A DNA stretch of 60,000 nucleotides from Bugula neritina. Its lineage: Eukaryota > Bryozoa > Gymnolaemata > Cheilostomatida > Bugulidae. The DNA lies in contig OZ037768.1 of NCBI GenBank assembly GCA_964035545.1, positions 18,953,700 to 19,013,699 on the forward strand, in the 5' to 3' direction. The position numbers and the translations under genes are program-made. A model generated the notes under the pieces. The model was given only the letters and a program-made list of their open reading frames with translations. It made no database searches and had not been told where the DNA came from. This document shows, in pieces, positions 2,978 to 55,639 of the stretch (positions within the stretch are counted from its first letter, which is position 1; every line of letters starts with the position of its first letter).

Positions 2978-3451
2978 TGTTATGGTGGGTTTTACTAATG
3001 TTGAGTATTGTAAACTCACCGAATAATATATATAATTTGGCCTTGGGGTGAGCTCGGGGTCGGTATGCAGTTGCGGGTTGATAGCTTGGCTGCGAGGTAA
3101 CTCCAGCTCCTGTCCGTCTGGTAGGGGTGAAGTTGAGACTCCGGGTTAGAGTAGTTGGCTGGTGGTGCTCCTCGGTCTATGGTCCTGAGCTAGCACTCAC
3201 AAACGTACTCTAACACATTCTAATTAAGTTGTATACATTCTATATAAATATTCTCAATTGTTCCTCAATCAGTCTCAAGTCTCTCCATTCTCCCATTTGC
3301 ACTAGGTTATATAGCTACAACACTCACACAAGCCACACCCACGCTATAAGTAATAATAATGTCAAACTTAGAGTTGTGCACCCCACACACATGCAACAAC
3401 AAGAGATGACAACTACGCATATTTATAATACTTATAAATCCAGATATAACA
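2978..3451 (-). repeat. 3' LTR of the Gag-only retrotransposon (left copy)
   Basis: 474 bp, TGTTATGG..TATAACA. Read on the minus strand it carries a TATAAATA box near its start. The short plus-strand frame at 3229-3489 is only a shadow of this LTR and appears again in the right copy. Confidence 0.93.
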
Positions 3452-6400
3452 TTCTCCGTCACAATAAAAATTTACAGTTCCACCTGTAAATACTTAACTA
3501 GGGGCATTGCGATTTAAGGATAAATATTGCAGTAACAATGTCAAACTATTAGATATGTAATTACTTTAGGACTACTGGACATATTAGAACTTGCAATATA
3601 TCAGACATTGGGTATAGTTGATATTAATAGACGTATTGGAAATTACTACATACATAATAATCTTTATATAATAGCTGTGAGTGTCTACTAGCCTCACAAC
3701 TGTTTAATAAGGCTGTGGGATTTACTACTACTATTGACCAAGTTATAGAATAGGTAACATACAAGAGAACAGCACAGCAAGAATAAGTTCAACTTCTGTC
3801 TATTGAAAGTTGCAAATTTCCCTTTGTTACCCTTTATAAAATAGAGCCCATCAGACAAAATACTATAGACGCATGTATGCTATATATGTATGTATATAAT
3901 ATATATATATATTTTTTTTTTGTAGCGATTGCATCAATTTCTATTCTTTAAATTAAATGAGTTAGCATGACTTAAGTCTGAATTTCATAGTTAACTAAGC
4001 ATTATAAATTAAATCTTAAAATTAAAAATTATGCAGGGTATAATTAAACTACGTAATTGGTAATGATATATAGCCATTTGTACGTGGGTTGTGGCTGTGT
4101 AGCCCTGTCTTCAAAGAAAGTATCAATTACTATTGTTCTAGATTAATGAGATATTATGAGACATATGCAATTTATTTATAAGCTTACTTCCACATTAAAT
4201 ATAATAAACTTTTAATCTGACAGATGTTGCCAGACTAATTATTTTGGTTAATGACTTATTTAATTCTAAGTAGCCCCTCTTATTAGTATAAAATCAGCAA
4301 GGATTAGCATAATTAGTATAATTTATTCTATATACCATCTTTGTAACTATAGTGGAAAAACTGTAGTCTGCAATGCTATACACACAGTAGTAACAACGGC
4401 CTTGTATTATATTCTGTTTATGTAGCACTAAACTCATATCAGCGTTTACTCTAAACTAATTGTATGTGGGACTTGAACTAAGAAATTATAATTAATTACT
4501 CCTGACTTTTAATATTGGCTGTGGTGACTTACATTTATAAGCTTGTATTCAATGCTAATTCCAACTATATACATATCAAGCACATTATATGGCGTGGGAA
4601 AAGGCTATAACGGAGATTGGAGTATGGTGGTACCATTCTATACCAATGTAATATGTGATTAAGGATTAGAGGTCTACGTAGATAAGTGTATTTACTGGGG
4701 CTAGTATATTTCTTTATAAGGATAAGGCCTAACATAATTAATATAATATGATGGCTGCATGAGCCTGCTGCAAACTAAGATGTATATAAATATGGGGAGA
4801 ATGACAATTGATATAGGCAATAGGCCGAGTATCTTTATCACAATAATAGAAATGTCTACAAAGTAAAATCCAGGACCCAAAAGAGAATGGAAACACCTTC
4901 ATCATACAGAGTTGTGTAATATAATATCTCAAGCAATAATTTCAAGCTGTCTTGCTGGGTAAGGCTTACAGCTCATTAAAGTTTATGTTTGGTCTACTAT
5001 TTCCTAAACTGTCTAGTTTGATTCACTTAGAGCCAGCTATCAGGTTAATTAACAAAACTACTTCCCCTTAGATTATCACTAATTGCTTCCAACCTTCAGA
5101 ACTCAACTATGTCAACATTTTCCTAGAGAATGAAAATTAACCTCTGATTACTGCTCCAGCAGCAAGATGATATCAATTAATAAACACTATGAACCTGTAG
5201 ATTCACAAGACTATGGTTGTCATACATATTGAACTTGTCCAGTTCATTGATAATACACATCAGTTAGAGAGTAATAATGGTATGGTGCAGTAGTCACAGA
5301 CGATGACTAATTACTAGCTTGAGTTTGTCAAGGTATATAGGCCCGCATGGTTGGTAATGAGCTTAATAGATGATTACTTCAAGAGAAAATCTTATAAGGC
5401 GATAAGACGTATTATATATTAATTCGATTAGTAGTTTGACTAAATAGTATTGCACTTAGGTATAAGAAGTTTTAATTAAAGTTAACTAGGGCCATAATCT
5501 GAACAATACGTGGGAGTGACTGAGGCTGCACAGGCGGCAGCTAACACGCCCCATGCGCTGCAGTCACATGTAGCAATGCCAGCCCCCACCGGGCTCGTCT
5601 CCACATGTATCATACTAATAATAGAGCTTATATTCTATTTTTCTCTTGAAGAAGTAATTGCAAACAACATTGATCCCTGGTAACTCTTATATGAGTTTGG
5701 TACGCATAACTACAGTATAATATTTTTTATAGCTAGTTTTATTTATGTTTTCAAATAAGTAAGCTCATACTGGATTACTGTCGTATCATACTAAATAAAG
5801 TCATATATTGTCATACGTGAGGCGCCAGCACAAGTTGTACTTAAATGTGTGTCGTGGCCAGGCAGCAGCAGCGCTTCATTAATAGAAAATTCACAACATA
5901 AAATTATATACATATACCCATCACCAACATATAGGAAGTGGTTAGTATTAATTAGCTAGCATGCAGGATAGCAAAATGCACCAGAGTAATGTGCACTCAG
6001 TCTATTTCATACGTCTATGAATTTTAGTCTAGTCAATGTCAAAGTATAGAGCTCTATGGACGTCCAGTAGTAATTTTTGTTTTTTGCAAGGCCTGTAAAT
6101 TTTGTTGTATTTCCGTACGGATTTATGCATGCTGTCGGTATACCATTATGAAATTTTATATATTCGGTCAGTGTCCCATTTTCTGTAGTGATTCTACGTA
6201 CGTGTTGCCCTACTGACGTGTCGTCGTGGCGATATAAATTATACAATTGTTTTTCGATTCGTTTGTTGTTCGGGACAGTTTGTGTTTAAAAGCGCTTTAT
6301 ATAAATATCGTATGTAGCCTATTTGTTGAAGTAGCCTATATATTATGACAGTATACTGTGTAGCCCTAGTTTTTCGATTGAAGTTTAACGTCATTCTGGA

Positions 6401-8342: not shown

Positions 8343-8816
8343 TGTTATGGTGGGTTTTACTAATGTTGAGTATTGTAAACTCACCGAATAATATATATAA
8401 TTTGGCCTTGGGGTGAGCTCGGGGTCGGTATGCAGTTGCGGGTTGATAGCTTGGCTGCGAGGTAACTCCAGCTCCTGTCCGTCTGGTAGGGGTGAAGTTG
8501 AGACTCCGGGTTAGAGTAGTTGGCTGGTGGTGCTCCTCGGTCTATGGTCCTGAGCTAGCACTCACAAACGTACTCTAACACATTCTAATTAAGTTGTATA
8601 CATTCTATATAAATATTCTCAATTGTTCCTCAATCAGTCTCAAGTCTCTCCATTCTCCCATTTGCACTAGGTTATATAGCTACAACACTCACACAAGCCA
8701 CACCCACGCTATAAGTAATAATAATGTCAAACTTAGAGTTGTGCACCCCACACACATGCAACAACAAGAGATGACAACTACGCATATTTATAATACTTAT
8801 AAATCCAGATATAACA
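8343..8816 (-). repeat. 5' LTR of the Gag-only retrotransposon (right copy)
   Basis: 474 bp, matching 2978-3451 without a difference that I can see. It is followed at 8817-8820 by the TSD copy TTAG. Confidence 0.93.
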
Positions 8817-8820
8817 TTAG

Positions 8821-22467: not shown

Positions 22468-22571
22468 ATGCTCTGTTTTAAACTTTGAGCTCTTTTTAGC
22501 AGCGCACTATATCTCACAGTCATATTAAGGCTCCTTTTAGTTGAGCTCTCTTTATAGTATACTGCTACATA

Positions 22572-24666
22572 ATGAAACAGATAACATTTGACTACTCTAC
22601 AAAGAATATACCACTTCCATCTCAAAAGGACTACATACTACATCTGATACGCCAAATTGAAAATCTCTGTAAAAGAATGAGATGGAGAGCTTACTTCTTC
22701 CTCCATCCAGAGGCTAAAGCCGAGCAAAAAGAAACTTATGGATTTCAATCTAGAAAGGCTCTACCCCAGATCAGTCAATTACTCAGTTTTGAGAAGCGTA
22801 TGCAAAACTTTATACACAAAATAAAGTTTAGGAAAGTTAACTGTGTATTTCAACAAAAGCTTCTTGAAGATATCAGAAATAAAATAGACTGCGCGCAAGT
22901 AACTATACCTGCGGACAAAACATCAAACTTTTATGAGACGATTCCTGATGCCTATAATAAACTTCTCCATGATAATATCACTTCGTGCTATCAAAGAGAA
23001 GATAATTCCACACCAATGAACATCAGCAAAGAAGCAAAAGATATTGCCACAAGCCTCAAGTTAGCAGACCGAATCAACGTCACTGCAGAGAAGCACGCAT
23101 ACATAACTCTAAAAGACCATAAATCCAACTTTGAGACTACACCATCATGCAGACTGATAAACCCATCAAAACCAGAGTTAGGTAAAGTAAGTAAACATAT
23201 ACTTGAGAACATCAATTCTGCTATTGCCTCCAGACTATCACTGAATCAATGGGAAAACACCCAAGCTGTCCTAAACTGGTTTAATAATATTATGGATAAA
23301 AACAACTACTCTTTCATCGAATTTGACATTGTCAACTTTTACCCTTCTATTACAGCCAAGCTCCTCAATGCAGTATTAAACTTTGCTTCGTCTTACATTA
23401 ACATCTCCGAAAGCGACCGAAACATTATGCATACAAAAAAGTCGCTACTCTATAACACCAATGGTGCGTGGAGTAAAGCGAATACCAATAGATTATTCGA
23501 CATTACAATGGGGAGCTACGACGGAGCGGAGACCTGTGAACTGGTGGGTTCGTTTATTCTACACCTGATCACAGCGAAACATGGCTATAATTTCGGATTA
23601 TACCGAGACGATGGCCTTGGAATGATAAAGGCGCCAGCTAATTCCATAGAGTCAATAAAGAAAGACATATGCAACATATTTAAGCAAGAGGGCCTAAAGA
23701 TCACTATTGAAGCAAATAAGAAAGTGGTAAGTTTTCTAGATGTACGCTTAGACCTGTATACTGAGAAATATAAACCATTCAACAAACCAAACAATAATCC
23801 TACATATGTGCATATTAAATCTAACCACCCGCCCTCGATACTGCACAACATACCTGACTCAATTAACAGAGGCCTGTCATCAATTTCAACAGACACTACT
23901 AGCTTCGCCGAATGCACACCATTATACCAAGAGGCCCTAAAGAAAAGCGGATATAACCATAAACTCAAATTCCACCAACAGACAAGGGAAAACCATTCTA
24001 ACAAAATCAACCGCTGGAAGCCCATAACCTGGTTTAATCCGCCATAGAGCCGTAATGTAGCCACAAATGCAGGCAAAGAATTTATGAAGATAGCACGGGA
24101 AGAGTTCCCACACAACCATGCCCTTAGTAAAATATTCAACAACAAAACCTTAAAAGTCAGCTACAGCTGCATGAAGAATGTACGGTCTATGATAAGAGAC
24201 CACAACAAAAAATTACTACACCAACAGGAGAATGTAAATAATCCATGCAACTGCAGAAATAAGAATCTGTGCCCACTCAATGGTGACTGCAGATCAAAAG
24301 CTCTAATCTACCAAGCCGCTGTCTCCTCTAACAACCATACAGAAACATATGTTGGACTAACTAAAGGTGAATTCAAATTTAGATATCATAACCATATAGC
24401 CAGTTTTAAACACAATAGTAAACGCAACTCTACTGAGCTCAGTAAATATGTCTGGACTTTAAAAGACAAGAATATGGATAACAATATACAATGGAGAATT
24501 TTAAAACATGCTCGACCGTGCAATAAAAACTCCCCCTCTGCCACCTATGTTTATGGGAGAAATACTTCATAGTATATAAGCCAACATACCCTTCTTTAAA
24601 CACCAGAAGTGACTTTATTTCTACATGTAGGCATGCACGGGCATTTGTTTTAGAAAGCATTAGATG
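22572..24666 (+). pseudogene. Penelope-like retroelement copy 1: RT plus GIY-YIG endonuclease
   Basis: From ATG 22572 one frame runs 491 aa to TAG 24045-24047 and continues in the same frame past it to 24572; the last part shifts frame near 24535 and ends near 24666. N-terminal: KRMRWRAYFFL, IPADKTSNFY. RT core: ITLKDHKSNF, CRLINPSKPELGK, motif [28 protein letters not shown], motif [11 protein letters not shown] with the catalytic DD, then SFLDVRLDL. After the stop come KVSYSCMKNV, the Cys cluster CNCRNKNLCPLNGDC and a GIY-YIG nuclease (ETYVGLTKGEFKFRYHNH). RT with C-terminal GIY-YIG is the hallmark of Penelope-like elements. One nonsense codon and one frameshift are the only breaks noted, so the copy is fairly young. 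Confidence 0.88.
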
Positions 24667-24772
24667 AGCTTTTTATAATCTACACATTATGCTTACCAGC
24701 CTATTTTAAATATAAACCCGCCAGCTTTTCACTATATAAATCGCATCATGTATTATATTCTTTAGTAGATTT

Positions 24773-24834
24773 AAACATTTTGTCTGAAGAGTGTATATAT
24801 TAACACGCATGAAACTATTAGTAATAAAATGTTT
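24773..24834 (+). ncRNA. Type I hammerhead ribozyme in the 3' region of Penelope copy 1
   Basis: Core CTGAAGA (24784-24790) and GAAA (24811-24814) are intact. Stem I is 9 bp, AAACATTTT (24773-24781) with AAAATGTTT (24826-24834). Stem III is a minimal C-U/A-G pair closing a 3-nt loop, followed by the cleavage triplet GTA (cut after 24823). Stem II (GTGT with GCAT) is weak, with wobble pairs, so activity may be reduced. Penelope-like elements are known to carry such ribozymes. Confidence 0.8.
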
Positions 24835-24864
24835 TATCAAATTTAACTGTGACATTTTAACTCT

Positions 24865-24982
<118 letters not shown>

Positions 24983-25111
24983 GTATGCTGATTGTCAATC
25001 TAGTTGGAGTTCCAGCAAAGTAAAGTGCTCGATATCACGGGTGACAGAGCTAATATAGTGTAGTGTGTTCAGATTGTTAATGATACATATATATTTTTTT
25101 ATTTAAAAAAT

Positions 25112-25162
25112 CTTACACGACTATATAGTTTCGTACAGTAAACTGCACTCGTCAGGTGTTAG
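25112..25162 (-). ncRNA. Hammerhead ribozyme, left arm
   Basis: Exact mirror of the ribozyme at 25504-25554, read on the minus strand: stem I CTAACAC, core CTGACGA, stem II GTGCAG/CTGTAC, GAAA, stem III CTA/TAG, cleavage triplet GTC. Confidence 0.88.
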
Positions 25163-25503
25163 ACTAAAAATAAATAAAATCTATGAAGCATACCGATTAT
25201 TCAAATTTTTACATAAAGAAAATTATCATGCTAAACACAACGTAAAACGAAATGCAAACATAGTAGTGGATTTGGTGTTATCTATTAATTAATTAAATTG
25301 CTCTTTTTCTAAAGGATTAGACTATAAAAGCTAGATGTTTGATGGAAAGGTTAATTTATAATAGGTAGTACTATGGTTGAGAGTTGTTAGTATTGTTATG
25401 TGATGTTGCCCAGGTAGTGCTTACGTGCATGTCTGCATGTGGATAAAATTTCATTTCTGTTATTAAGGGAAGATTTGCTTCATAGATTTTATTTATTTTT
25501 AGT

Positions 25504-25554
25504 CTAACACCTGACGAGTGCAGTTTACTGTACGAAACTATATAGTCGTGTAAG
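25504..25554 (+). ncRNA. Hammerhead ribozyme, right arm
   Basis: Core CTGACGA (25511-25517). Stem II GTGCAG (25518-25523) pairs with CTGTAC (25528-25533) around TTTA, 6 bp with one G-U. GAAA is at 25534-25537. Stem III CTA (25538-25540) pairs with TAG (25543-25545). The cleavage triplet is GTC, cut after 25547. Stem I CTAACAC (25504-25510) pairs with GTGTAAG (25548-25554), six of seven positions. All core bases needed for catalysis are present. Confidence 0.9.
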
Positions 25555-25710
25555 ATTTTTTAAATAAAAAAATATATATGTATCATTAACAATCTGAACA
25601 CACTACACTATATATATATATATATATATATATGAAGAGCAAAATAAAAAAACCAGTGGTGTCACATTTTTAAATTTTTTGAGTTATGTGCACTTTCATG
25701 TACTTTGAAG

Positions 25711-28706
25711 CAGGGTTGGGGTAATTTTAATTTGTAATTGGTTGTAATTAATTAAATTTTTTCAAGTAATTAAATGTAATTTGTAATTGATGTAGGAAAA
25801 TGTAATTGTAATTAATTACTTATCTAATGTAAATGATTTTTACAATTACTTTATAGTTTCATATCAATTACTTTGTCGTATTTTTAACTCTTAAAAACTG
25901 TTTATACCTTTTTTACCATGGCTACTGTATAATAAAAAGTTCAAACTAATTCAATGTAGCATTGCATCACTCTACTACTCACTCTTAAGAATTCCCAGTG
26001 CATGTGGATCCCTAGAGTGAGATTGCATAACTTATATTTGTCTTTCGTGAGATTAAAGGAGGTTATACACTATTTACCATCACGATATAGGTAGATTTCA
26101 GCATTAGAAGAAGTTGTGTTAACATGTCAAGGCATGGCTAATTAATAGGCACAGGAGGTCAATTTAATTTAAAGTTTTCACTAGTGTGAAATAAGAACAA
26201 AAAATGTGGTCCATGTGTCAGAAGTTAACGGGCTACTAACACCTAAAAGGTAGCCAGCAAAAGAGGTGCTGGAACAACATTACAAAACCCACTTATCTCC
26301 ATTGAAAACGTACCTTAATGTAAGCTTTCACGATCCACCTTGCCCTTGAGTGAAGAAGTTCATTATATATTGAGAATTCTCCAAGCTAAGATTGCAGTTC
26401 TAACAGCATGACTCAAGTTTGGGACCACTTTATTTTACCTGAAGGTTATGACAAGAGCGAGAACAACCTTAAAGCCAAATGCAAACATTGCTTATCCTCC
26501 ATCTCAGGATCCAGAGAAGCAACATCCAACTTTGTGATAAATTTAAAAGTAAAGTTTGACCATTTATACATCCTATTAATATCTTAGTTCTACACATAAT
26601 GTTACCACATTGGCTGACTGAGTTTATCTGTTATTTATTTTTATGAATATGATGACATAAGTTAGACATTAGATATATATACACATGTATATATATAACA
26701 GCTTGTCTAATAGACAAGCTGTTTTATATATCTGTTCAAAACAAAGCAACATGAATTTATATATGGCTTAAATATTTAACTCTGGCTGTCTGCACTTTGT
26801 TTTCACAGAGGAAGCATGAAGATGTCCATTTGTCACATAAACCAGCCACCATAGCCGCCTGTCAGCCAACTTTAAACTCATTTGTTGTACCAATCAAGAA
26901 GTACGGGCCTTGTGATTCACGGCAGAAACTGATGACAGATCTTTTGGTGAAGACAATTGCTTGTGACTTGCTTCCACTTTCTTTTGTGGAGTGAAAACTT
27001 CAGCAGCCTGATGCAATTGACAGAGCCTTGTTACACTATGCGCAGCCGGAAGCACTCAACTATCAACCTTATCCCAAACAAGGTCAAGGAAATAGACAGC
27101 ATATTGCGGGCAAAACTGAAAAATATTTCAGTGTGTATTACTGTGGACATGTGGTCCAATCGACAGATGAAGGGGTTTATTGGGACTACTGGTCTTTACA
27201 TCCTAAACTGGACCCTTCAACCTGTCATGCTAGCCTGCTCTCGTTTTCAAGGCCGTCACACAGCAAACCAGACCAGACGCTAGCATGCTTTGGAATTGAT
27301 GAAAAGGTTACGAATATAATGATTCATAATGTATCAAACATGACTAAGGCATTTGGCTTACCTGGGTTTGAAAGCATAAAAGATGAGGAAGGAGTCAAAT
27401 AGAGATGACAGAATGAATTATGAGGAAACAGGTGTGGAGCATGATCCATGCTTTGCACATACACTACAGTTAGTGGTGAAGGATGGACTTAAGCAAGCTG
27501 GGTCTATAACTAAGGTTCTTTCTAAAGCAGCTCACATTGTTAGTTTTATAAGGCGATCAACTTTAGCCACTGACATACTTGAATGTGAGCGAAAAGTTCA
27601 AGCTGCAACCTGCACTAGATGGAATTCATAACCGTTGATGATTCGTTTTATCTTGCAAAAAATTGCAGACCTTGGTTGCCCAAAACTATTAACAAATGAT
27701 CGTAAAACCCTGGATGATGTGTGTGATATACTTGTGCCATTTGAAAAGGCAACACATGCAGTGCAGGGTGACCAGGGTGTCACATCTAGTTTTGTAATTA
27801 TTATCATGCATTCGTGGGACAAAACTCTAACTGGTGGAGATGGCACAGAAGTACAATTGCCAGTTTGTGTTGGTTCTGCAAACATCTTTTATGAGGCGAA
27901 TGGCGTACGAGAATAAGGAAGTTTTTCTCCTGGCAACAACCCTTGACCCTCGATTTAAACTAAAGTGGTGCCAGGGGTTAGAGTTGGAGAAATAGACAAT
28001 TGATCTAGTGCACAAAGCTGCTCGGGTGGTCACAGTTAAAGGAGCTTTTATTGAAGAAACAGAGCCACATGCAAAGAAACCAAAACCAGATGGTGATTTC
28101 TTTGACTTTTTCCTTGAGTCACAGCCAGTAGCCAATACTCCATCATCTAACGCAAAGAAAGAAGTGGAGGAGTATCTTGCTGCCCCCTCCTGAAGAGAAC
28201 CAAAGACCAAATGACTTTTTTGGGGAGGGGGAGGGTGAATGATTCAAAATACCCGCATTTGGCTACTCTTGCTGCCAGGTACTTAGCAGTGCCAGCCTCC
28301 TCCGCCTCTGTAGAACGGTTGTTTAGGGCCAGAGGAAAAAATTTTCAGGCCTGATAGATGTTGCCTATTAGATCATGTGTTTGAAAATCCCATGTTTCTA
28401 AAATGCAATGGACATTGGTAAATAGAGCAAATGACCTCTTCATTATTATCAAGTAAAACAATTAATATAAATTTTATGAATACAAATAATTGTGACTAAT
28501 GGTGTGGTTATTGAAATTAAAAAAATGATGAAAATACATAGTTATTCTTTCTGGTTTGGTGTCAAAGTAATTGTAATTGTAATTAATTACGTTGCAATGT
28601 AATTGTAATTAATTACATTTGGTTTCAACTGTAATTGTAATTGATAAATGATCATGTAATTGTAATTGCAATTAATTACATTCATATGTACTTGACCTCA
28701 ACCCTG
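25711..28706 (+). mobile_element. hAT DNA transposon (2,996 bp)
   Basis: The ends CAGGGTTGGGGT and ACCTCAACCCTG are inverted repeats. The perfect 8-bp TSD CTTTGAAG lies at 25703-25710 and 28707-28714, the length typical of hAT. TAATTACAATTA-like subterminal repeats fill 25720-25870 and 28565-28690. The transposase inside is broken. Confidence 0.97.
26408..28440 (+). pseudogene. BED-finger hAT transposase (ZBED-like), broken
   Basis: Exon 1 (26408-26548) starts MTQVWDHFILPEGYD and has the first zinc pair CKHC. An intron 26549-26808 (GTAAAG..CACAG) is followed by RKHEDVH, the His pair of the BED finger. Later pieces in changing frames match hAT order: CITVDMWSNRQMKGFIG (catalytic D), LACSRFQGRHTANQT, VSNMTKAFGLPGFE, EHDPCFAHTLQLVVKDGL, TRWNS, AATTLDPRFKLKW and a decayed C-terminal dimerisation zone near 28240-28330. 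At least five frameshifts or stops separate them, so no active protein is made. Confidence 0.9.
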
Positions 28707-31083: not shown

Positions 31084-33140
31084 GTGTATATTGATGTTTG
31101 CATCAAGTTGACCACCATGAACAAGCACTTATTTATTGTGTTTGATCTCGTGGAATTTTATCCTTCTATATCTTTAATATTGCTATCAGATGTTCTCGAA
31201 TTTGCCAGTTCGCATACTAGAGTCAGCAACCATGAAAGGAATATTATAATATTGCATAAAAAAATCTATACTGGTGCATGACAAGTTTTGGGGTAAAATA
31301 TCATCAGATAATTTGTTTGACGTCACTATGGGCTTGCAGGATGATGCTGAAAAATGTGAACTAGTCGGCTTATTTTTATCAAGTGCAATCTCAAAAAATT
31401 TTAAAGCTAATATTGGACTATATCGAGATGATGGGCTAGGAAGAACAGACCTCAAACTTCAATTAGCTGAAAGATTGAAAAAAGATCTCTGCACATTATT
31501 TCAGTCACACGGTCTAAAGATCACCATAGATTTTAACATCAAAACAACCGACTATTTAGATGTTACCTTAGATCTGGTCAAGAAACAATACAGACCATAC
31601 TCTAAGCCCAACAACATTCCTCTGTACGTACACAAAGAGTCTAATCATCCCTATAGCATACTAAAAAATATACCAGAATCCATAAATCGCAGACTTTGTG
31701 ATATATCTACTAATGAGACCATTTTTAATAATGCCATCAAGATGCGTTGGCTAAAAGTGGACATAACTATCAGCTCAAATACAGAAACTACACAAACAGC
31801 ACCAATACGACATCAAACCTACACGACAAAGACGAATCATCTGGGACAAACCGTTCTATAGTGGTAATGTAAAGACCAAAATCGGCTCCTTATTCTTCAA
31901 GCTAATAAAAGATGTATTCCACAGCAAACACACATTACACAAAATATCTAACAATAACACACTGAAACTCAGCTACAGTTACTGCGCTAGCTTAGAGCAA
32001 ACCATTACTGCCCACAACAAAAGTGTTGCTAATTGTAACACTGCCTCTACATCACAGGCAGGCTGCAACTGTTGAAATGTAGAAAGGTGCCCGCTACCAG
32101 GATAATGCACAACTCCAAATATGATGCACCAGGCTAATGTATCTGTTCCATCAAACAATACTGTTGAAACATATGTAGGATTTTCTTCTACTACATTCAA
32201 GCCAAGGTATTACAACCGCCTTGCTTCCTTCACGCATCCGACCAAGTGCTTACAAACTGAGTTAAGCAAATACATCTGTGTAGCGTTTTGACCATTCCTC
32301 ATTGTATTACACACTACTACATTGTCTTAACTTTTGCTCAATCCATTCAAATCATCGCCTGCTGTGGCACAGGACAATTCATCACCATTCACTCATACTC
32401 ATTTAGCTACTCACTTAGTCATAGCTTTTTAAACCACTGATAGGTTTGTATTCACTATTTAAATGCAATGATTCTTGCGACCACAATAGCTGTCAGCATT
32501 TTTTAGCTTGTAGCCAAAAATTATAGCAGCTGAGTTGTTTTATGCTTTCATGCCAGTCTGATGCGTTTCTCCACTGACTGTATTATAGTTGTCACTAGTC
32601 ATTTTTTGACTCTGTACATGATACATATAGATATTAAACCTTTCACTATTACAACCTTATATATTCAATTCTAACTCTTCCCAGGAAGGGTAATAGAGGT
32701 ATGTTGAACATTGTTATGCAACAATTTTGTAATGTGTTATGTTTCATTTTTCTTGTCATCAATGTCTTTATCAAATTGTATTATTGTAGTTTCACGTTGG
32801 ATTTAATAAACATCAGCAAAACTCCAGCAGTGCAACCTATTATTAATAAACTGGGGTTGAAGTTACAATCTGGTCTTTAAAAGACAGAGGCCTGGATTTC
32901 ACAATTTCCTGGAAAATTCTTAGAAAAGCTCAGCCATATAATAACATCACTAAAAGCTGTCAGCTGTGCTGATGGGAAAAATATTTTATTCTGTACAAGC
33001 CACGGTTGTCTTCTCTTAACAAGCACAATGATTTTTTATCTATATGCAGGCATAGCAGGAAATTCCTACTCAAGAATGCTGTGACATAGCTAATTACATC
33101 CAATGCTACCTGTGTGTTATATTTTAATCTTCATGCTTTA
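31084..33140 (+). pseudogene. Penelope-like retroelement copy 2, 5'-truncated
   Basis: It starts inside RT (MNKHLFIVFDLVEFYPSI, motif A), shifts frame near 31275, then reads [40 protein letters not shown] and KPNNIPLYVHKESNHP to 31740. More shifts lead to WDKPFYSGNVKTKIGS, KLSYSYCASLE and the GIY-YIG part (VETYVGFSSTTFKPRYYNR, ELSKYI). A solo LTR (32279-32867) cuts it there. WSLKDRGLDFTISWKILRKA, CQLC and RKFLLKNA follow after the LTR. The upstream part was lost at the edge of the DNA transposon ending near 31082. Confidence 0.85.
32279..32867. mobile_element. 589-bp solo LTR inside Penelope copy 2
   Basis: It begins TGTAGCG and ends GTTACA (TG..CA, TGTA/TACA inverted ends). The 5-bp TSD ATCTG is at 32274-32278 and 32868-32872. 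Removing it joins the two halves of the GIY-YIG frame at the point where copy 1 is continuous (SKY / W.LKD). An AATAAA signal lies near its right end. Confidence 0.85.
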
Positions 33141-33295: not shown

Positions 33296-33900
33296 TATGA
33301 GCAGGAAGCTTTCATCACACTAAAAGACCACAAAGAAAAATTCATAAACAAACCAACTTGCCGCCTTAGAAATTCCTGTAAACCAGAAATAGGAAATATC
33401 AGTAAACAAATCTTAGACCGGATAAACAACAAAATTCTTACAAAAACATACTTAGACCAATGGAAAAACACCACTGACATAATAAAACGGTTTGAAAGAA
33501 TTGACAAATAACACCAACACACATTTACTTCATTTACCCTTCGATTTCCCAAACCTACTTGAAATTGCTCTAACTTTTGAATCGAAATTGGATACAATCA
33601 GCAAAGACGAAATAGAAATAACTGTAGATGCAAAAAAGTCACTACTCTTCAACTACAAAAATGCGTGGGGGAAACACAACCACAACCTCTTCGACGTGAC
33701 AATGGGAGGGTACGATGGCGCAGAAACATGCGAACTAGTTGGAGCGTATATTTTAAACTTAATAACACAAAAACATGACAAAAGCTTTGGCCTGTACAGG
33801 GATGATGGCTTAGGAGTCTCCAACAAAACACCAAACGAAATAGAAAAAATGAAAAAGGATACATGTAAAACATTCTCTGAAAATGGCTTAAAATAACAAT
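33296..33900 (+). pseudogene. Penelope-like retroelement copy 3, RT fragment
   Basis: EAFITLKDHKEKFINKPTCRL and GNISKQILDRINN open the fragment; a stop and shift near 33511 remove motif A. From 33590 the frame reads [32 protein letters not shown] and [10 protein letters not shown] to NGLK near 33895. It has a (G)12 run at about 33937 just after it. The sequence to about 34115 has a short ORF without a recognised domain. Confidence 0.85.
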
Positions 33901-36769: not shown

Positions 36770-37715
36770 ACACCCTTCAATTCATCTGTTTTGAAGATTT
36801 TGTTTATGGCTCAGCACTCAATGCTTCTTCACTGGATGATTTGCTGGAATTATAATTTTGACTTCAATCTTTTGCTTGATCAACATGTTTTGCATGTCTA
36901 TAAGTAAACTAATCTTCATTTATAAGCAGTCTTCAGTACAAACTTATTTGATGGCTTTTGCAAATAATAGTAATAGGCAATGATGAAAAATATTAAACTA
37001 TCTTCTTTTCACACTTCAAATAGCAAAATTACCAATGTAATATTTTTATCCAGACACGAAGACTAAAATATGTAAAGCTTGCATAATAGCATTACAAAAA
37101 ACATGTACAAATGATAAATCTAATATATGCAACATACTTCTTAAGCATTGAGCTTTTAGCTGAAAAAAAGATTCACTGGGGTGATCACAACATTTTCAAA
37201 ATATTGTTCCATAATCTCAAAAGAGAAAAAAAGGTCAAGAAAGAAAAGGGAAAAAACTTGATCTGTAAAGTTGCTAAAACTGTTGCACATAATATTTTTG
37301 AAGGAAGATAAATTGTCATACTCTTTTCCACTTTATTTTGAGTTGTGCTTTCAATACTATAAGCGTCAGTGCTTTATACAGTCATTATGTTTTTGTTTTA
37401 ATTTTAGTGTTCTTTCAACATCGGAAAGCATCGAGAACATATTTGACTGCTGATTTGATGTCAAAAAACTTGAAATCAATAAAATTTCAAAACACTGATA
37501 TATTTTAAAATTTGGTTAGTCTTTACTAAGGGTTTTTTAATACTTGTTAAGTCTTCGCAACTTATTTTAACATCTTATCTATAGCTATCTATTACCAGCA
37601 CTTGCTCTGTAATTATATACATTTGATTATGTAATAATATATGTATAATATAAAACGGCATTTGCGTGTTTTTTGTGCAAATATTTTTGAGGGCAACAAG
37701 AGCGAATTGTAGAGA
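36770..37715. other. No gene recognised
   Basis: AT-rich; short frames at 37111-37311 and 37271-37453 lack domains. Confidence 0.5.
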
Positions 37716-37724
37716 AAACCACAG

Positions 37725-37960
37725 CTGATCAATTATTCGACATAACAATGGGAAGTTATGACAGAGCAGGCCTGTAAATTTGTTGGCACATTCCTCTTAC
37801 ACCATGTGACCAGTAAGCATGGCCCTAATATCGGTTTATGCCAAGATGATGGCTTAGGAACTTTAAAAACGTCAGCTAAAACCATTGAAGCTACAAAGAA
37901 GGCCACATGTAACAACTTCAAACACATGGCTACGAATAAAAATTGAGGCAAATAAGAAAA
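37725..37960 (+). pseudogene. Penelope-like RT fragment (copy 4)
   Basis: About 235 bp with DQLFDITMGSYD, then after a shift CKFVGTFLLHHVTSKHGPNIG and CQDDGLG, which aligns to the YRDDGLG motif of copies 1-3. It ends near KIEANKKTVN. Only the RT palm part remains. Confidence 0.85.
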
Positions 37961-37974
37961 CTGTGAATCCACCT

Positions 37975-48760: not shown

Positions 48761-50440
48761 GGTTTATGTTCGAGTTTATCATTATGATTATGCTTTCATC
48801 AGTTATGAGGCTGGGCCATCAGCCATCAGACTCAATTAATCAATATAATTGTCAGATCATGAAAATGACAAGTATTTTATTTTTTGCAGAGTAGATACCG
48901 CATTTATTTTAATACTTATACTAATAGTAATATAAATATAGTAATAATTAAAATGCCAATAATATTAATAATTGTAAAAAAGTTTATAAGTTGGAGGAAA
49001 ACTAGTTGACATTAAGGGTAGGTCACGTTTCATAAACAGTTGTTTTAAAAATAACACTATCCCATTGTTATACTTATTGTATGCTTATTACTATTAGATC
49101 TAGAACAGCTGCAAGCCTCACTCAAATTTATTGGCACCAAAGGTAAATGATGCAGACATGCCTCATGACAACTCTTACAGTTCTTTTGTCACAAACCATT
49201 CTATTGTGTTCGAATTAGATCTGGGATAGCTGAAAGTCTTACTTACTCTTATTGGCATCACGTAAATCATGCCGTGGAAAAGGACCCCCGAGTCCTTTGC
49301 TTTAAGCTACCTAAATAAGCCACCTAAAAATGTAAACGTGGTACATACAGAAAAAAAAGATAAACCAAAGAGGCGCAGATGCCAAATGCCATCAGGACTT
49401 GCTCCTAATTACTGAGTGTATGAAAAGGCCACAAGGAGTTACAGACACATTGTGGTGCCCCTGAGCTGTCAGCAAAACCACCGAATGACTAACAGCTGTT
49501 TTCTCATTCTTCGACCCATGTGCCCTAGCACTGGTAGATCAATCAATGATTTTAGCAAAGCTCTAATATCAGTTATTGAGTTTTTTGTCATGCTTTGTAT
49601 TTTAGTGTGCACTCTATAGAAATATGAAGCAGTAACTCGCCCATTCCTAGCTTCATACCATGTAGCATTGTCGCTTTGCCCCCTGGTTTCCTTTTTCTAT
49701 TTTGTTCAAATCTACCACAGGAAGTTTTTTCTGTAGAAACTCTTGTACTGTGCCACAGCTCTTGGCAATAGATGTAATACTTATTATGTTTGTTTCCTGC
49801 AAAGGAATAGTTTCCACAGCCTTCTTTTTTGCTACAATTAATAAATTTATGGGTAGAATTCTTCGAAATAGCGCGCGTGTGTATGTGTGTGAGAGAAGAA
49901 ATTATTGGCAAATATGTATCTATATTATCAACATTAGCATTGTTATATACCACGAAAAGTATGCTTGTATCAAATAATCGATCTTATTGCAAGTGTAGTA
50001 ATGGAAACAGCTTATTAGAGACTAATATAAGCAACACTATAATACAACTTATGAGGAATCATTTAAAAGTTGAGTAGCCTAAAGTAATAATAAGCTGCAT
50101 TAATACCTATATTACCTGGCAAAAACATTACAGCAAAAATAATCATGCAAGTTTTTAAATCATATGTTTATAAAAAAATTATAGCTGTGCATATTTTAAC
50201 AATTAAAATAAACCAAAACTCAGCAATTTTATGTTATAATTATAACACAATTTCAATGCATATACTAAGTAATTCGTTATATTAATACATTATATAATAT
50301 TACATAGTATAACTACTGCTTATAAACTACAAAAGCTTGCATGTAGCAACATTCTGTTTACCTTGCAGTATTTAGGTTTTTTTAATTCTATATCTTGTAC
50401 TGGAATGTACAGCTGCTTCGCCTTTTCATACTTTTCGTAG
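48761..50440. other. No gene recognised with confidence
   Basis: AT-rich. A minus-strand 121-aa frame at 49588-49953 (TSCGRFEQNRKRKPGGKATM) and its neighbours in other frames could be an old transposon protein, but no motif decides it. An approximate direct repeat (TTAGATCT.G.A.AGCTG.AAG) recurs near 49095 and 49213. Confidence 0.4.
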
Positions 50441-51049
50441 AAAGATTGACTGCATCAATATTTTCAGTTCTACTTTGAATATTTCCCCATCGCGGCTTTG
50501 CAAGGCAATGATCGACATCTTTCAATAAAAAGTATTAGACGCTTTTCATACATCTTAATCTTATACATACGTTATGAAGCTCAGAAGTGCACTACTCGTG
50601 TTATTTATATCATGAATATAACTATGAACATGAAGTGCTTGTACAAGAAAGGCTTGATAGCTCTAGCCTGAATGCACTTTCCAATTTAAAAAGTAATGCA
50701 GCGATGTAATTGCAAGTTTGGCCTAATCTAAAATTAAAATTATAAACTTTGTCTATTTTTTAAAGCTTCTACTACAAAAAATGTATAAATTAGTATTTAA
50801 GATTAAGATATCATTCCTCTTACTCAGCTACGAAAAAGCAGAATTCTGGAATAACTGTGGCTGAATTTTTTTCTATCATAGTCCATTAGTTGTGTAGTGT
50901 ATCATTCAGTCTATTGTTTGGAGTGCAAGTAGACCTTAGATAAAACACCCAACTATCTTTTCTAGTTTTATGAACACCTCCTGAAGGAACCCATTATAAA
51001 AATATGAAAATCCTTTTCCAGTTTTGTATGAAGTTAGTGCATCAGTTGC

Positions 51050-51420
51050 CAAATTTTATCCGTGTTTCAATAAAAGTTGTACAATTTCTACATAAGAAAC
51101 TGGTGGCCACTGGCTACTACCCTCTCTCATTACTTTATTCACAAAGCCTAGCTGGGTTAATATGTAGAGTTTTGTAATCCATTTTTCGTAATGGTACTTG
51201 CTGCTTTGCTCCAGGCTTTTCAGGCATTTGGTTGTTATAAAGAAAATATACCCAAACACTAAGCTCATTCTCTGAACCAGTAATCTTGTAACCTTTTTCT
51301 GCACAGGTCGGTCAGAGCTTCAATATCCCAAGTTTTAATTTCTGTTAACGCTATCAGATTATCTTTTTCTAAGTTGCAATTATTAGTTTAATTAGTAGGC
51401 CTATTCCTTTTAGAAAGTAC
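51050..51420 (-). pseudogene. SAP-like/WPPVxY-domain fragment (array copy A)
   Basis: Pieces ITGSENEL-like, KCLKSLEQSSKYHYEKWI and SSQWPPVSYVEIVQLLLKHG lie downstream of the transposase half in the same orientation. The intact first part is seen in copy B. Similar segments occur near the N-terminus of uncharacterised invertebrate proteins that also carry SWIM or YqaJ domains; that link is from memory and uncertain. Confidence 0.4.
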
Positions 51421-51479
51421 AGAGCAGCTACGTCACTTTTGTCAACTACCAACCCTTGAATGACATTATCCATTCAGCT

Positions 51480-51736
51480 GGGGCAGAAGGTGGCTTTAAA
51501 TACAGTAGTTGTAAGACAACCCACAGCGTATCGACGGTGCCCTAGATGGCTTGAGATGTTGATGACCGCCCAAGGCTACAGTGAGCATCTAGGTGATATA
51601 ATGTCAATGCCAGCTTCAAGCTAGCTTCTAATGCATTTTGCATAATAGTGTATTTCTTTGTGATGTAGGGCTGTAGTAATGACAGCAGGTAGTCGAAGTT
51701 TTTAAGAGTCATCCGAAAATATTTCCTGCGCCTCAT
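51480..51736 (-). pseudogene. Harbinger-type transposase N-terminal half (array copy A)
   Basis: MRRRKYFRMTLKNFDYLLSL, LQPYITKKYTIMQNALEASL, LTLYHLDAHCSLGRSSTSQ and, after a stop, TLWVVLQLLYLKPPS..AEW follow the HARBI1 pattern (FRM..FD.LL..v.P.I.K, R.al....rLa.tL..La, hy.lGrsT.s, ylk.Ps..EW). The catalytic DDE half is missing. Confidence 0.75.
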
Positions 51737-53528
51737 TTACCCTCTAGCGGGTTAAAACTTGTTGCTCTATTAGTAATAGTTCCGGCTTGCTTGGAGCTAA
51801 CACTAACTCATGGTTGTGAATGTGGCCCAGACTTGCTGGTTATCACCCAGTCAGTCTAATGGCGATCACTCGTTCTGATTTAAAAAAACATAGTGAAGGG
51901 TTGAATGCTTTCCTGCTTAGGTGATGATTGGTGTTATCTCGTGCAACCCTTCTCACAGCGAGTGGTAGTTTGTCACAAAGGTCACCAAAGTGAAAACTTG
52001 TTAAGTAAAGGTGATGTACTTTACCTTATTGACTGTAGCAATTCTCTACAGCGATTAGCGATGTTACATCTTCCTTAACGAGCCTTATTTTTTCCATTTT
52101 GACATACGCTTGCTGAACACAGAATGGCACATATCTGAATTTCTACTATTCAAGCAGTTTCACATACATTTATAGGCATTTGCCTGGTAAATTTCTTTTA
52201 CACTCTTCAAATCTTGCTTGAGGTTCTAATCTTTTTCTTCCGGGTCTGGTTTTTATTAAATTTATACAAACTTGTTGAGATAATTTTCATCCATATTCTA
52301 TGTTTATGATAAAATACTAACACTACCAGTAACTTTTTGTTATTCAATTGTTCAAGAATAGTCAATCATTTTCTTTCTCAACATTGAACTGTAAATTGTG
52401 GTGCGGTTTTACCATTGTTTCATCGTGGTAGGTTTTCTGTTGGGTTATTGTGCTCACCTTGGATCTCCGCAAGTTGAATGAAAATTTAAGCTATTGGCTA
52501 TTTCTACGTTTGATCTTTTAGCTGTTCCATTTGTTTTCCTATTTTAGTTGGTTGTTTTTTTATTAATATCAAAACGTTTATTTGCAGCAATGACTGATTT
52601 ACTATTAGGTATTAAGTTGTCTTTTACTGTAACAGTTTTTTTTCTGTGTTTACTCTATATTTCAACTATAGAGACTTGTAAAATTCATTTTTTCAGTCTT
52701 TAAGCATGTTCATAGCTCTCATTTTCTTGAGACTTTGCACATAGAAAAATGGACTGCTTGATTATCTCTATTTCTGCTTTGAAAATTTCCTTATCGGAGC
52801 TTTGCAAGGCAATGATCGACATCTTTCAATAAAAAGGATTTGACGGTTTTCATACATCCTAATCTGATACATCATTATGAAGCTCAGAAGTGCACTACTT
52901 CTGTTACTTATATCATGAATATAACTATGAACATGCCATGCTTGTACAAGAAAGACTTGATAGCTTCAGCCTGAATGCCCTTACCAATTTAAAAAGTAAT
53001 GCAGCTATTTTATTGCAAGTTTGGCTTAATCTAAAATTAAAAGTATAAACTTTTTTTATTTCTTAAAGCTTCTACTACAAAAATGTATAAATTAGTATTT
53101 AAGATTAACGTATCATTTCTCTTACCCAGATACAAAAGAGCAGAATTCTGGAAGAATTGTAGCGAATTTTTTTCTATTTTAGTCCATTAGTTGTGTGGTG
53201 TATCATTCAGTCTATTGCGTGGAGTGCAAGTCGAGTTTATATGACACAGAGAACTATCTTTTCTAGTTTTTATAATAGAACACCTCCTGGGGGAACCCAT
53301 TATAAAAAATATAAAAATATTTTTCCGGTTTTGTATGAAGTTAGAGCATCAGTTGCCAAGTTTTTTCCGTGTTGCGATAAAAGTTGTATAATTTCTATAT
53401 ATGAAACTAGTGGCTACTGGCTAATACCATCGTTCTCATTACTCCGTTTACTAAGCTTAGCTGGGGCAATAATTGGGACTACAGCATTATGTAGAGTTTT
53501 TTAAATTTATTTTTCGTGATGCTTCTTA

Positions 53529-53738
53529 CTACGTTGCTCCAGGCTCTTCAGGTATTTGATTGTTATAAAGAAAATATACCCAAGCACTAAGCTCATTCTC
53601 TGAACCAGTAATCTTGTAACCTCTTTTTCTGCAAAAGTCTGTCAGAGCTTCAATATCCGAAGTTTTAACTTCTGTTAAACCAATCAGATCATCTTTCTTT
53701 AACTTGCAATTATTAGTTTGATTAGTAGGCCTATCCAT
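53529..53738 (-). pseudogene. SAP-like domain ORF (array copy B)
   Basis: An open 69-aa frame: MDRPTNQTNNCKLKKDDLIG, LTEVKTSDIEALTDFCRKRG, YKITGSENELSAWVYFLYNN. The helix-loop-helix pattern with L..L...CR.RGY..TG...EL..RV is SAP-like, that is, likely DNA binding. Copy A has the same segment with more damage. Confidence 0.5.
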
Positions 53739-53819
53739 TTTAAAAAGTACAGAGCAGCTACGTCACTTTTGTCAACTACTAACCATTGAATGACCTTCAT
53801 CCATTCAGCTGGGCTAGAA

Positions 53820-54075
53820 GGTTGCTTTAAATATAGTGGTTTTAAGACAACCCACAGCGTATCGAGGGTGCCCTAGATAGTTTGAGATGTTGATGACCGG
53901 CCAAGCCTATAGTGGGCAGCTAGGTGATGTAGTGTCAATGCCAGCTTCAAGCTAGCTGCTAATGCATTTCGCATAATAGTGTCTTTCTTTGTGATGTAGG
54001 GCTGGAGTAATGACAGCTAATAGTCGAAGTTTTCAGAAGTCATTCGAAAATATTTCCTGCGCCTCATTTACCCTC
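53820..54075 (-). pseudogene. Harbinger-type transposase N-terminal half (array copy B)
   Basis: This repeats copy A with differences: MRRRKYFRMTSENFDY, stop, LSLLQPYITKKDTIMRNALA, LTLHHLAAHYRLGRSSTSQT, stop, LKPLYLKQPSSPAEWMK. It is closer to the family pattern (HYRLGRSST) than copy A. Confidence 0.75.
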
Positions 54076-55639
54076 CAGCGGGTTAAAACTTGTTGCTCTA
54101 TTAGTAATAGTTCCGGCTTGCTTGGAGCTAACACTAACTCATGGTTGTGAATGTGGCCCAGACTTGCTGGTTATCACCCAGTCAATCTAATGGCGATCAC
54201 TCGTTCTGATATAAAAAAACATGGTGAAGGGTTGAATGCTTTCCTGCTTAGGTGATGATTATTATTATCTCGTGCAACCCTTCTCACAGCGAGTGGTAGT
54301 TTGTCACAAAGGTGATCAATGTAAAAAACTGTCGTAAAGTAAAGCTGATGTACTTCACCTAATTGACTGTAGCAATTCTCTACAATATTGCCAAAACCTA
54401 TTAGCGGTTTTACATCTTCCTTAACAGGCCCTATTTATTTCGACATACGCTTGCTGAACACGGAATGGCACATATCTGAATTCCTACTATTCAAGCAGTT
54501 TCACATACATTTATATGCATTTGCCTGGTAAATTTCTTTTACACCCTTCAAACCTTGCTTGAGGTTCTAATCTTTTTCTTCCGGGTCTGGTTTTTATTAA
54601 ATTTATACAAACTTGTTGAGATAATTTTCATCCATATTCTATGTTAAAATACTAACACTACCAGTAACTTTTTGTTATTCAATTGTTCAAGAATAGTCAA
54701 ACATTTTCTTTCTAAACAGTGAACTGTAAATTGTGGTGCGGTTTTACCATTGTTTCATCGTAGTAGGTTTTCTATAGAGTTATTCTGCTCACCTTGAATC
54801 TCCACAAGTTAAATGAAAATTTAAGCTCCTGGCTATTTCTACATTTGATCTTTCAGCTGTTCCATTTGCTTTCCTATTTTAGTTGGTTGCTTTTCTATTA
54901 ATAACAAAATTTTATTTGCAACAATGATTGAAATACTAATAGGTATTGAGTTGTCTTTTACTGTAAACGTTTTTTTTTTCTGTGTTTACTTTATATTTCA
55001 ACTATAGAGACTTGTAAATTCCTTTTTTTCAGTCTTTAAGCATCTTCATAGCTCTCATTTTCTTGAGACTTTGCACATAGAAAGATAGACTGCTTGATTA
55101 TCTCTATTTCTGCTTTGAAAATTTCCCCATCGGAGCTTTGCAAGGCAATGATCGACATCTTTGAATAAAAAGGATTTGACGGTTTTCACACATCCTAATC
55201 TTATACATACATTATGAAGCTCACAAGTGCACTACTCGTGTTATTTATATCATGAATATAACTACGAACATGTAGTGCTTGTACAGGAAAAAAATGATAG
55301 CTCCAGCCTGAATGCACTTCCCAATTTGAAAATTAATGCAGCTATATGATGGCATGTTTGCCCTAATCTAAAATTAAAAGTATAAACTTTGTCTACTTTT
55401 AAAGCTTCTACTACAAAAATGTATAAATTAGTATTTAAGATTAAGATATCATTTCTCTTACTCAGCTACAAAAGAGCAGAATTCTAGAATTGTGGCTGAA
55501 TTTTTTTCTATTTTAGTCCGTCAGTTGTGTAGTGTATCATTCAGTCTATTATTTGCAGTGCAAGTAGACTTTAGATAACACACCAAACTATCTCACCTAC
55601 CACTTTAAGATAAACAATCTATAGTTTTAAAGGTTAGGT

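Follow-up and report, generated by a model that had tools for sequence, protein, structure and literature searches.

A hammerhead-bearing palindrome in a 60-kb stretch of Bugula neritina DNA as a truncated, probably double-ended insertion of a Penelope-like element

The stretch of 60,000 nucleotides of Bugula neritina DNA analysed here (the window) contains a palindrome with a hammerhead motif facing outwards in each arm, and the question raised by this locus is what kind of element leaves such a structure behind. The initial annotation had proposed a compact, self-contained unit without any ORF and of a type not yet described. Comparison of the window with itself bore out the perfect palindrome: the arms, at 25053-25190 and 25476-25613, are 138 nt each, 100% identical in inverted orientation, and 285 nt apart. 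The extent first given to the unit, 25053 to 25613, is correct for the arms, but the insertion reaches further left and includes a 72-nt tail. Nor is the unit devoid of coding sequence, since its minus strand retains the final 27 codons, with the stop, of the ORF of a Penelope-like element (PLE). Features are collected in Table 1.

Table 1. Features of the palindrome and of its left neighbour (window positions; reference positions are those of the longer copy L040)
Feature	Position	Strand	Remarks
Family-B PLE	22545-24868	+	RT/endonuclease ORF 22545-24572, one in-frame stop; ends in the (TA)n tract common with the family-A insertion
Family-B hammerhead-like motif	core 24784-24823	+	11-pair stem I, GTA cleavage triplet, weak stem II
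(TA)56 tract	24869-24980		Insertion target and left flank; also 3′ flank of the family-B PLE to the left
72-nt tail	24981-25052	-	Outermost part of the minus-strand PLE segment, at its tailed (T) 3′ end; same tail at 77 genome junctions
Minus-strand family-A PLE 3′ segment, contains left arm 25053-25190	25053-25479	-	Reference 2561 down to 2135; 98.1% to L040
Left hammerhead motif with stem I	25110-25163	-	Predicted cleavage between 25119 and 25118
Last 27 codons and stop of PLE ORF	25396-25479	-	Same residues in L040 sequence
4-nt overlap where both segments meet	25476-25479		Mapping on L040
Plus-strand segment, the right arm	25476-25613	+	From reference 2424 to the N (tail-less) 3′ end
Right hammerhead motif with stem I	25503-25556	+	Predicted cleavage after 25547
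(TA)12 tract, right flank of the insertion	25609-25633		Repeat annotation of the window

The arm corresponds to the 3′ region of an ORF-bearing PLE family (family A), so that the suspected link with Penelope held, and the unit is almost certainly a truncated PLE insertion. In L040, a longer family-A relative from the same genome, the ORF is on the same strand, just upstream of the arm and its ribozyme motif. It shares 50.8% amino acid identity over 449 residues (RT) and 46.3% over 162 residues (endonuclease part) with the family-B ORF of the window. The latter aligns with proteins of ~700 aa having in common PADKT, YRDDG, a cysteine cluster and TYVGLT..FK.R, motifs which we take to be those of a Penelope-like RT followed by a GIY-YIG endonuclease. 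Scans of the PLE ORFs against Pfam, NCBIfam and PDB sequences named no RT or GIY-YIG domain, and the canonical order of RT then GIY-YIG is assigned by homology only. By the definition of PLEs in PMC3846280, their terminal repeats can be inverted and one of them can bear a tail; such repeats are found here, as are AT-rich targets. Of 30 listed outer ends, 29 adjoin a TA run, either immediately or at a distance of up to 2 nt, and the left end of L032 does not. The protein matches included a PLE homologue from Watersipora subatra; together with a weak match of a 135-aa query to Bugula neritina (78% identity over 27% of the query), it hints at a bryozoan host. Many of the protein matches (P0001-P0120) were full-length PLE homologues of ~700 aa encoded on short contigs of just 2.2-3 kb, which may represent repeats that can be assembled only one unit at a time.

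Hammerheads were searched on both strands of the window with a custom type I descriptor, 40 Markov-1 shuffles serving as background. Three matches were obtained, against none in the shuffles: plus-strand core 25511-25547, minus-strand core 25155-25119, and the plus-strand family-B motif at 24784-24823. The intact, outward-facing cores described in both arms were thus recovered as putative type I cores with three stems, stem I being open. By eye, stem I of the arm motifs has 4 bp and 3 bp separated by an A.A mismatch, stem II has 6 bp and a TTTA loop, and stem III has 3 bp and an ATAT loop. An Rfam scan of the window reported no family at gathering score, and a relaxed scan of 24900-25800, with E up to 5, no hammerhead family. 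In the minimum-energy fold, stems I and II form, the core GAC pairs with GUC, and stem III is missing. Because the Rfam models miss them and energy-only folding leaves out stem III, we consider the arm motifs good candidate hammerheads, not proven ribozymes. The fold predicted for the whole 561-nt RNA is the 138-bp arm duplex, as had been suggested (-269.3 kcal/mol, z -29); since this duplex dominates the prediction, the window copy, if transcribed through, would probably not cleave. Among aligned arms, minority letters made up 0.84% of the ribozyme core (3/357 cells) versus 0.99% of the rest of the arm (21/2117), so the core is about as variable as the remaining arm and no selection on the ribozyme was seen in the dispersed copies. 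Two other loci (L052 439-655 and L051 486-718) each contain two hammerheads within a short palindrome, with hardly any distance between them, and are more compact than the unit of the window.

To place the window copy among its relatives, the 215.8-Mb assembly containing the window was searched. The single arm gave at least 41 matches, as 40 of the 161 candidates were scored; the 40-nt ribozyme core, when 3 mismatches or fewer were allowed, was found at 115 places versus 0 for a reversed control. Copies in twenty 10-kb stretches, the window and six short loci were mapped on L040, those in the stretches and the window by masked BLAST. Their segment pairs end outward at a common 3′ place (reference 2555-2561), and their inner ends vary. 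The genome search that had been suggested therefore did reveal dispersed copies with common outer 3′ ends, but with inner ends and sizes that differ, and the 561-bp unit is not what moves. Outer ends are of two kinds: T ends carry the further 72-nt tail, N ends run straight into TA. The window copy has its T end on the left, its N end on the right, and inner ends at reference 2135 and 2424. As the target is (TA)n, a target-site duplication is not readable. In the other copies the segments are joined by short overlaps or short filler, and some of the joins form an exact or almost exact palindrome (inner ends 2442/2442 in L051, 2446/2447 in L052). Seven mapped copies are single-ended (L039, L040, L041, L045, L047, L048 and L050). 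An array on C9 (L032/L033, C9:2728150-2738187) contains double-ended units ~2.58 kb apart with common inner ends 805/2208; the interior of its first unit is flipped compared to the others, pointing to recombination of inverted arms.

When up to 3 mismatches were allowed, junction patterns retrieved 77 T and 78 N sites, against 0 and 1, respectively, in the controls. Neighbouring family-A sites less than 12 kb apart were outward in 43 cases, inward in 2, ++ in 4 and -- in 1. Double-ended insertion is not the sole outcome, given that 69 of the 155 sites (37 N, 32 T) were unpaired. The junction patterns missed a further pair, L038, where one side shows only the tail and the opposite side an N end. 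After two more pattern searches, family A amounted to 161 sites and 44 outward pairs, of which 42 combined one T with one N end, 2 were TT and none NN; 22.2 mixed pairs were expected, and 42 was reached in 0 of 200,000 label shuffles. A similar rule was observed for family B, whose ends either pass directly into TA or carry a ~58-nt tail, the latter seen in one copy: its 46 sites formed 14 outward pairs, 13 mixed and 1 NN, and 597 of 200,000 shuffles reached 13. These pair counts were made on site lists transcribed by hand and include duplicates and arrays; dropping the likely segmental duplicates (C3:16088736 with C3:16243132, which have the same spacing and variant, and C8:658842 with C8:2042962) would remove one mixed pair from each family. 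An outward pair of another sort, 621 nt apart, was noted on C6, between a family-A N end (C6:2026894, minus strand) and a family-B N end (C6:2027515, plus strand); in this case, RNAs of two different elements may have contributed to one double-ended insertion.

Variant CACTACACTATAT is present at 1 of the 77 T junctions and 1 of the 78 N junctions, both being the window's own arms, in agreement with the recent or shared origin put forward for them. Arms were compared in 14 mixed pairs, setting aside L031, L054, L038, gaps, the length-variable run 2505-2532 and part of the L034a left arm. Together, mixed pairs differed at 28 of 3930 sites, and the two TT pairs at 6 of 342. Five of the 14 were clearly closer than other copies: L042a (3/1302), L035/L036 (2/705), L046 (1/114), L056 (1/245) and the window (0/102), the arm differences of L042a and L035/L036 being below those of every other copy in the same stretches. 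Two were in between, and seven were not closer than other copies. A one-sided Wilcoxon test on ranks gave p 0.015. A common template is thereby supported for some of the pairs, and would fit one RNA molecule or two transcripts of one gene alike.

We propose that the unit is probably a double-ended, 5′-truncated insertion of a hammerhead-bearing PLE in a (TA)n tract, a reading supported by the existence of the longer, ORF-bearing L040, the excess of outward pairs, the mixed labels, the TA flanks and the closeness of the arms in some pairs; that no more than 5 of the 14 mixed pairs are clearly closer than other copies counts against it. The anatomy of the copies, their outward pairing, the T/N rule and the flanks are direct observations; from them we infer cutting of both strands, priming, the join, and the use of one RNA for both ends. 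The TA tract would be cut on both strands, and each 3′ end, terminating in TA, would prime reverse transcription of the element RNA, one primer at a distal start site, yielding the tailed end, the other at a proximal start site 72 nt upstream, yielding the tail-less end. Both cDNAs would run inward, stop at reference 2135 and 2424 and be joined over the 4-nt overlap, and the product would be two outward copies of the element 3′ region, hence two outward hammerheads. Both ends adjoin ACATTATAT-type sequence, with which a TA-ending primer could pair at either end. If a start site were usable once per RNA, a single RNA serving both ends would yield the rule of one T and one N end, and the exceptions would be two-RNA events. 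The TT pair L043 speaks against this reading of the TT pairs, as it has a private variant in both arms. That there were two separate initiations, one from each strand, appears likely to us; for both having taken place on a single RNA molecule the chances are about even. LINE-1 twin priming is similar in that a pair of primers acts on a single retrotransposon RNA, with an inversion as the result. In that process the second priming is internal and it is the 5′ part that becomes inverted, whereas here both cDNAs would start in the 3′ end region, so that this region is doubled and faces outward.

Doubling of the 3′ region could also be obtained from a single initiation, if the antisense RNA or first cDNA folded back and was copied into a head-to-head inverted repeat, which is the explanation given for inverted PLE copies in the Discussion of PMC3846280. 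The palindromic or nearly palindromic joins of L051 and L052 fit such self-priming, and arms would then be copies of each other, as in L042a. Simple fold-back, however, predicts like outer ends, and these are unlike in 42 of 44 pairs in family A and 13 of 14 in family B. Moreover, a hand tally of the 16 mixed pairs with both inner ends mapped showed that the longer arm is tail-less in 6, where the tail of the shorter arm cannot have been copied from it; interior flips such as that of the C9 array could blur this argument. We therefore hold self-priming to be unlikely. Two separate single-ended insertions in opposite orientation, or a local inverted duplication whose arms gene conversion kept alike, seem less probable still. 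Single-ended copies do exist, and the C9 flip suggests that arms recombine, but separate insertions would give all orientations and labels, against the 43 outward versus 2 inward neighbours and the nearly constant T/N composition that were counted.

Perfect arms at one place would fit an assembly fold-back artefact, which we find hardly credible for the window locus, and a lone local inversion is unlikely as well: the same design is found at tens of places in the assembly, where the junctions differ and the two outer ends do not match. Equally improbable is a stand-alone non-autonomous unit, MITE-like or retrozyme-like, moving as such with its hammerhead inverted repeats. Many dispersed copies with common outer ends would suit it, but the outer ends differ by the one-sided tail, size and inner junction vary from locus to locus, and longer copies carry an ORF. 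On the same features, two known classes were rejected. A MITE or TIR DNA transposon is a fixed unit with matching terminal inverted repeats, and the copies have unlike outer ends, variable size and variable junctions; a metazoan non-LTR retrozyme consists of tandem direct repeats without an ORF, and the copies are inverted, the longer ones ORF-bearing. Double-ended insertion of a PLE explains the hammerhead-bearing palindrome and its outward pairs without a new kind of element.

The nearest known systems are two canonical endonuclease-bearing PLEs, Pen2a of Adineta vaga (PMC3846280) and Poseidon of Anolis, PAc (PMC11167929). Common to them and to the Bugula families are an RT/endonuclease ORF, head-to-head inverted pseudo-LTRs (pLTRs), an optional tail at one end, AT-rich targets, a hammerhead near the RT start sites, and two start sites bounding the tail. 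The tail is 72 nt here, versus 31 bp in Pen2a and 30-40 bp in Drosophila virilis Penelope (quoted in PMC11167929), and the targets are (TA)n. The start sites here adjoin ACATTATAT, which could pair with a TA primer, whereas the PAc start site is described as not homologous to the cut DNA (PMC11167929). With respect to the hammerhead, the minimal motifs of PLEs and Terminons described in PMC7761336 are likewise of type I and in the PLE terminal region, usually without helix III, whereas a 3-bp helix can be drawn here. Metazoan non-LTR retrozymes (PMC7229834) resemble the window copy in their type I hammerhead, AT-richness and want of a complete ORF; they are tandem direct repeats of ~150-450 bp, whereas the copies here are inverted and derive from an ORF-bearing element.

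Inverted pseudo-LTRs, one of which may be tailed, insertion into AT-rich targets and hammerheads in PLEs have already been published (PMC3846280, PMC11167929 and PMC7761336), and the window copy is one truncated member of such a family, not the undescribed unit it was taken for. The contribution made here is the counted T/N rule, made genome-wide here, unlike in the available work on Pen2a and PAc, and its reading as two-ended priming; no earlier statement of the rule or of a both-strand model was found in the literature searched, most subscription papers lying outside its scope. In the available sections of PMC11167929, both strands are cut and extended in vitro by the anole PLE protein, which initiates at two neighbouring internal sites that delimit the genomic tail; these results favour the mechanism proposed here. 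The same sections describe no start-site difference between strands and do not link the sites to inverted pairs, and both points count against it. Additional steps of PLE insertion are considered there as yet to be validated. The nearly exclusive T/N pairing in two families argues against simple self-priming, joins inverted pLTRs, optional tail and in vitro both-strand activity into one testable event, and so makes this open mechanism accessible to test. More tentatively, at somewhat less than an even chance, PLEs may integrate by one symmetric event, in which a self-complementary TA tract is cut on both strands and a single RNA molecule is primed from both ends, at one start site each. Paired start sites would then exist so that one RNA seals both ends of the break, and the classic inverted pLTR, tailed or not, would be the mark left by target-primed reverse transcription at two ends rather than by self-priming.

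As the hammerhead is upstream of both start sites, its cleavage would sever them from the element body. RNA cut in this way was considered as insertion template and rejected: with the start sites downstream of the cleavage site (reference 2495/2496), it would leave insertions ending at 2496, and no mapped inner end falls there, the nearest being 2492 (an extra segment in L051) and 2503 (L031). Nor did the list of family-A neighbour pairs contain any with the ~122 nt spacing expected of two arms ending at the cleavage site. In the anole system, ribozyme mutants still inserted in vitro (PMC11167929). The hammerhead perhaps serves in the processing of longer transcripts.

Further PLE fragments are present on the plus strand of the window at 31120-32276, 33299-33893 and 37715-37968, with 37-69% amino acid identity in pieces to the family-B ORF; the hammerhead descriptor gave no match beside them. 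At L044 (3200-4701), a PLE ORF close to that of window 31250-31858 (76-82% amino acid identity) is directly followed by a family-A arm, perhaps a chimera made by template switch. Elsewhere in the window, an exact 476-bp direct duplication (2978-3453 and 8343-8818) and a direct repeat of ~2.87 kb with 88.6% identity (50438-53259 and 52742-55593) were also observed.
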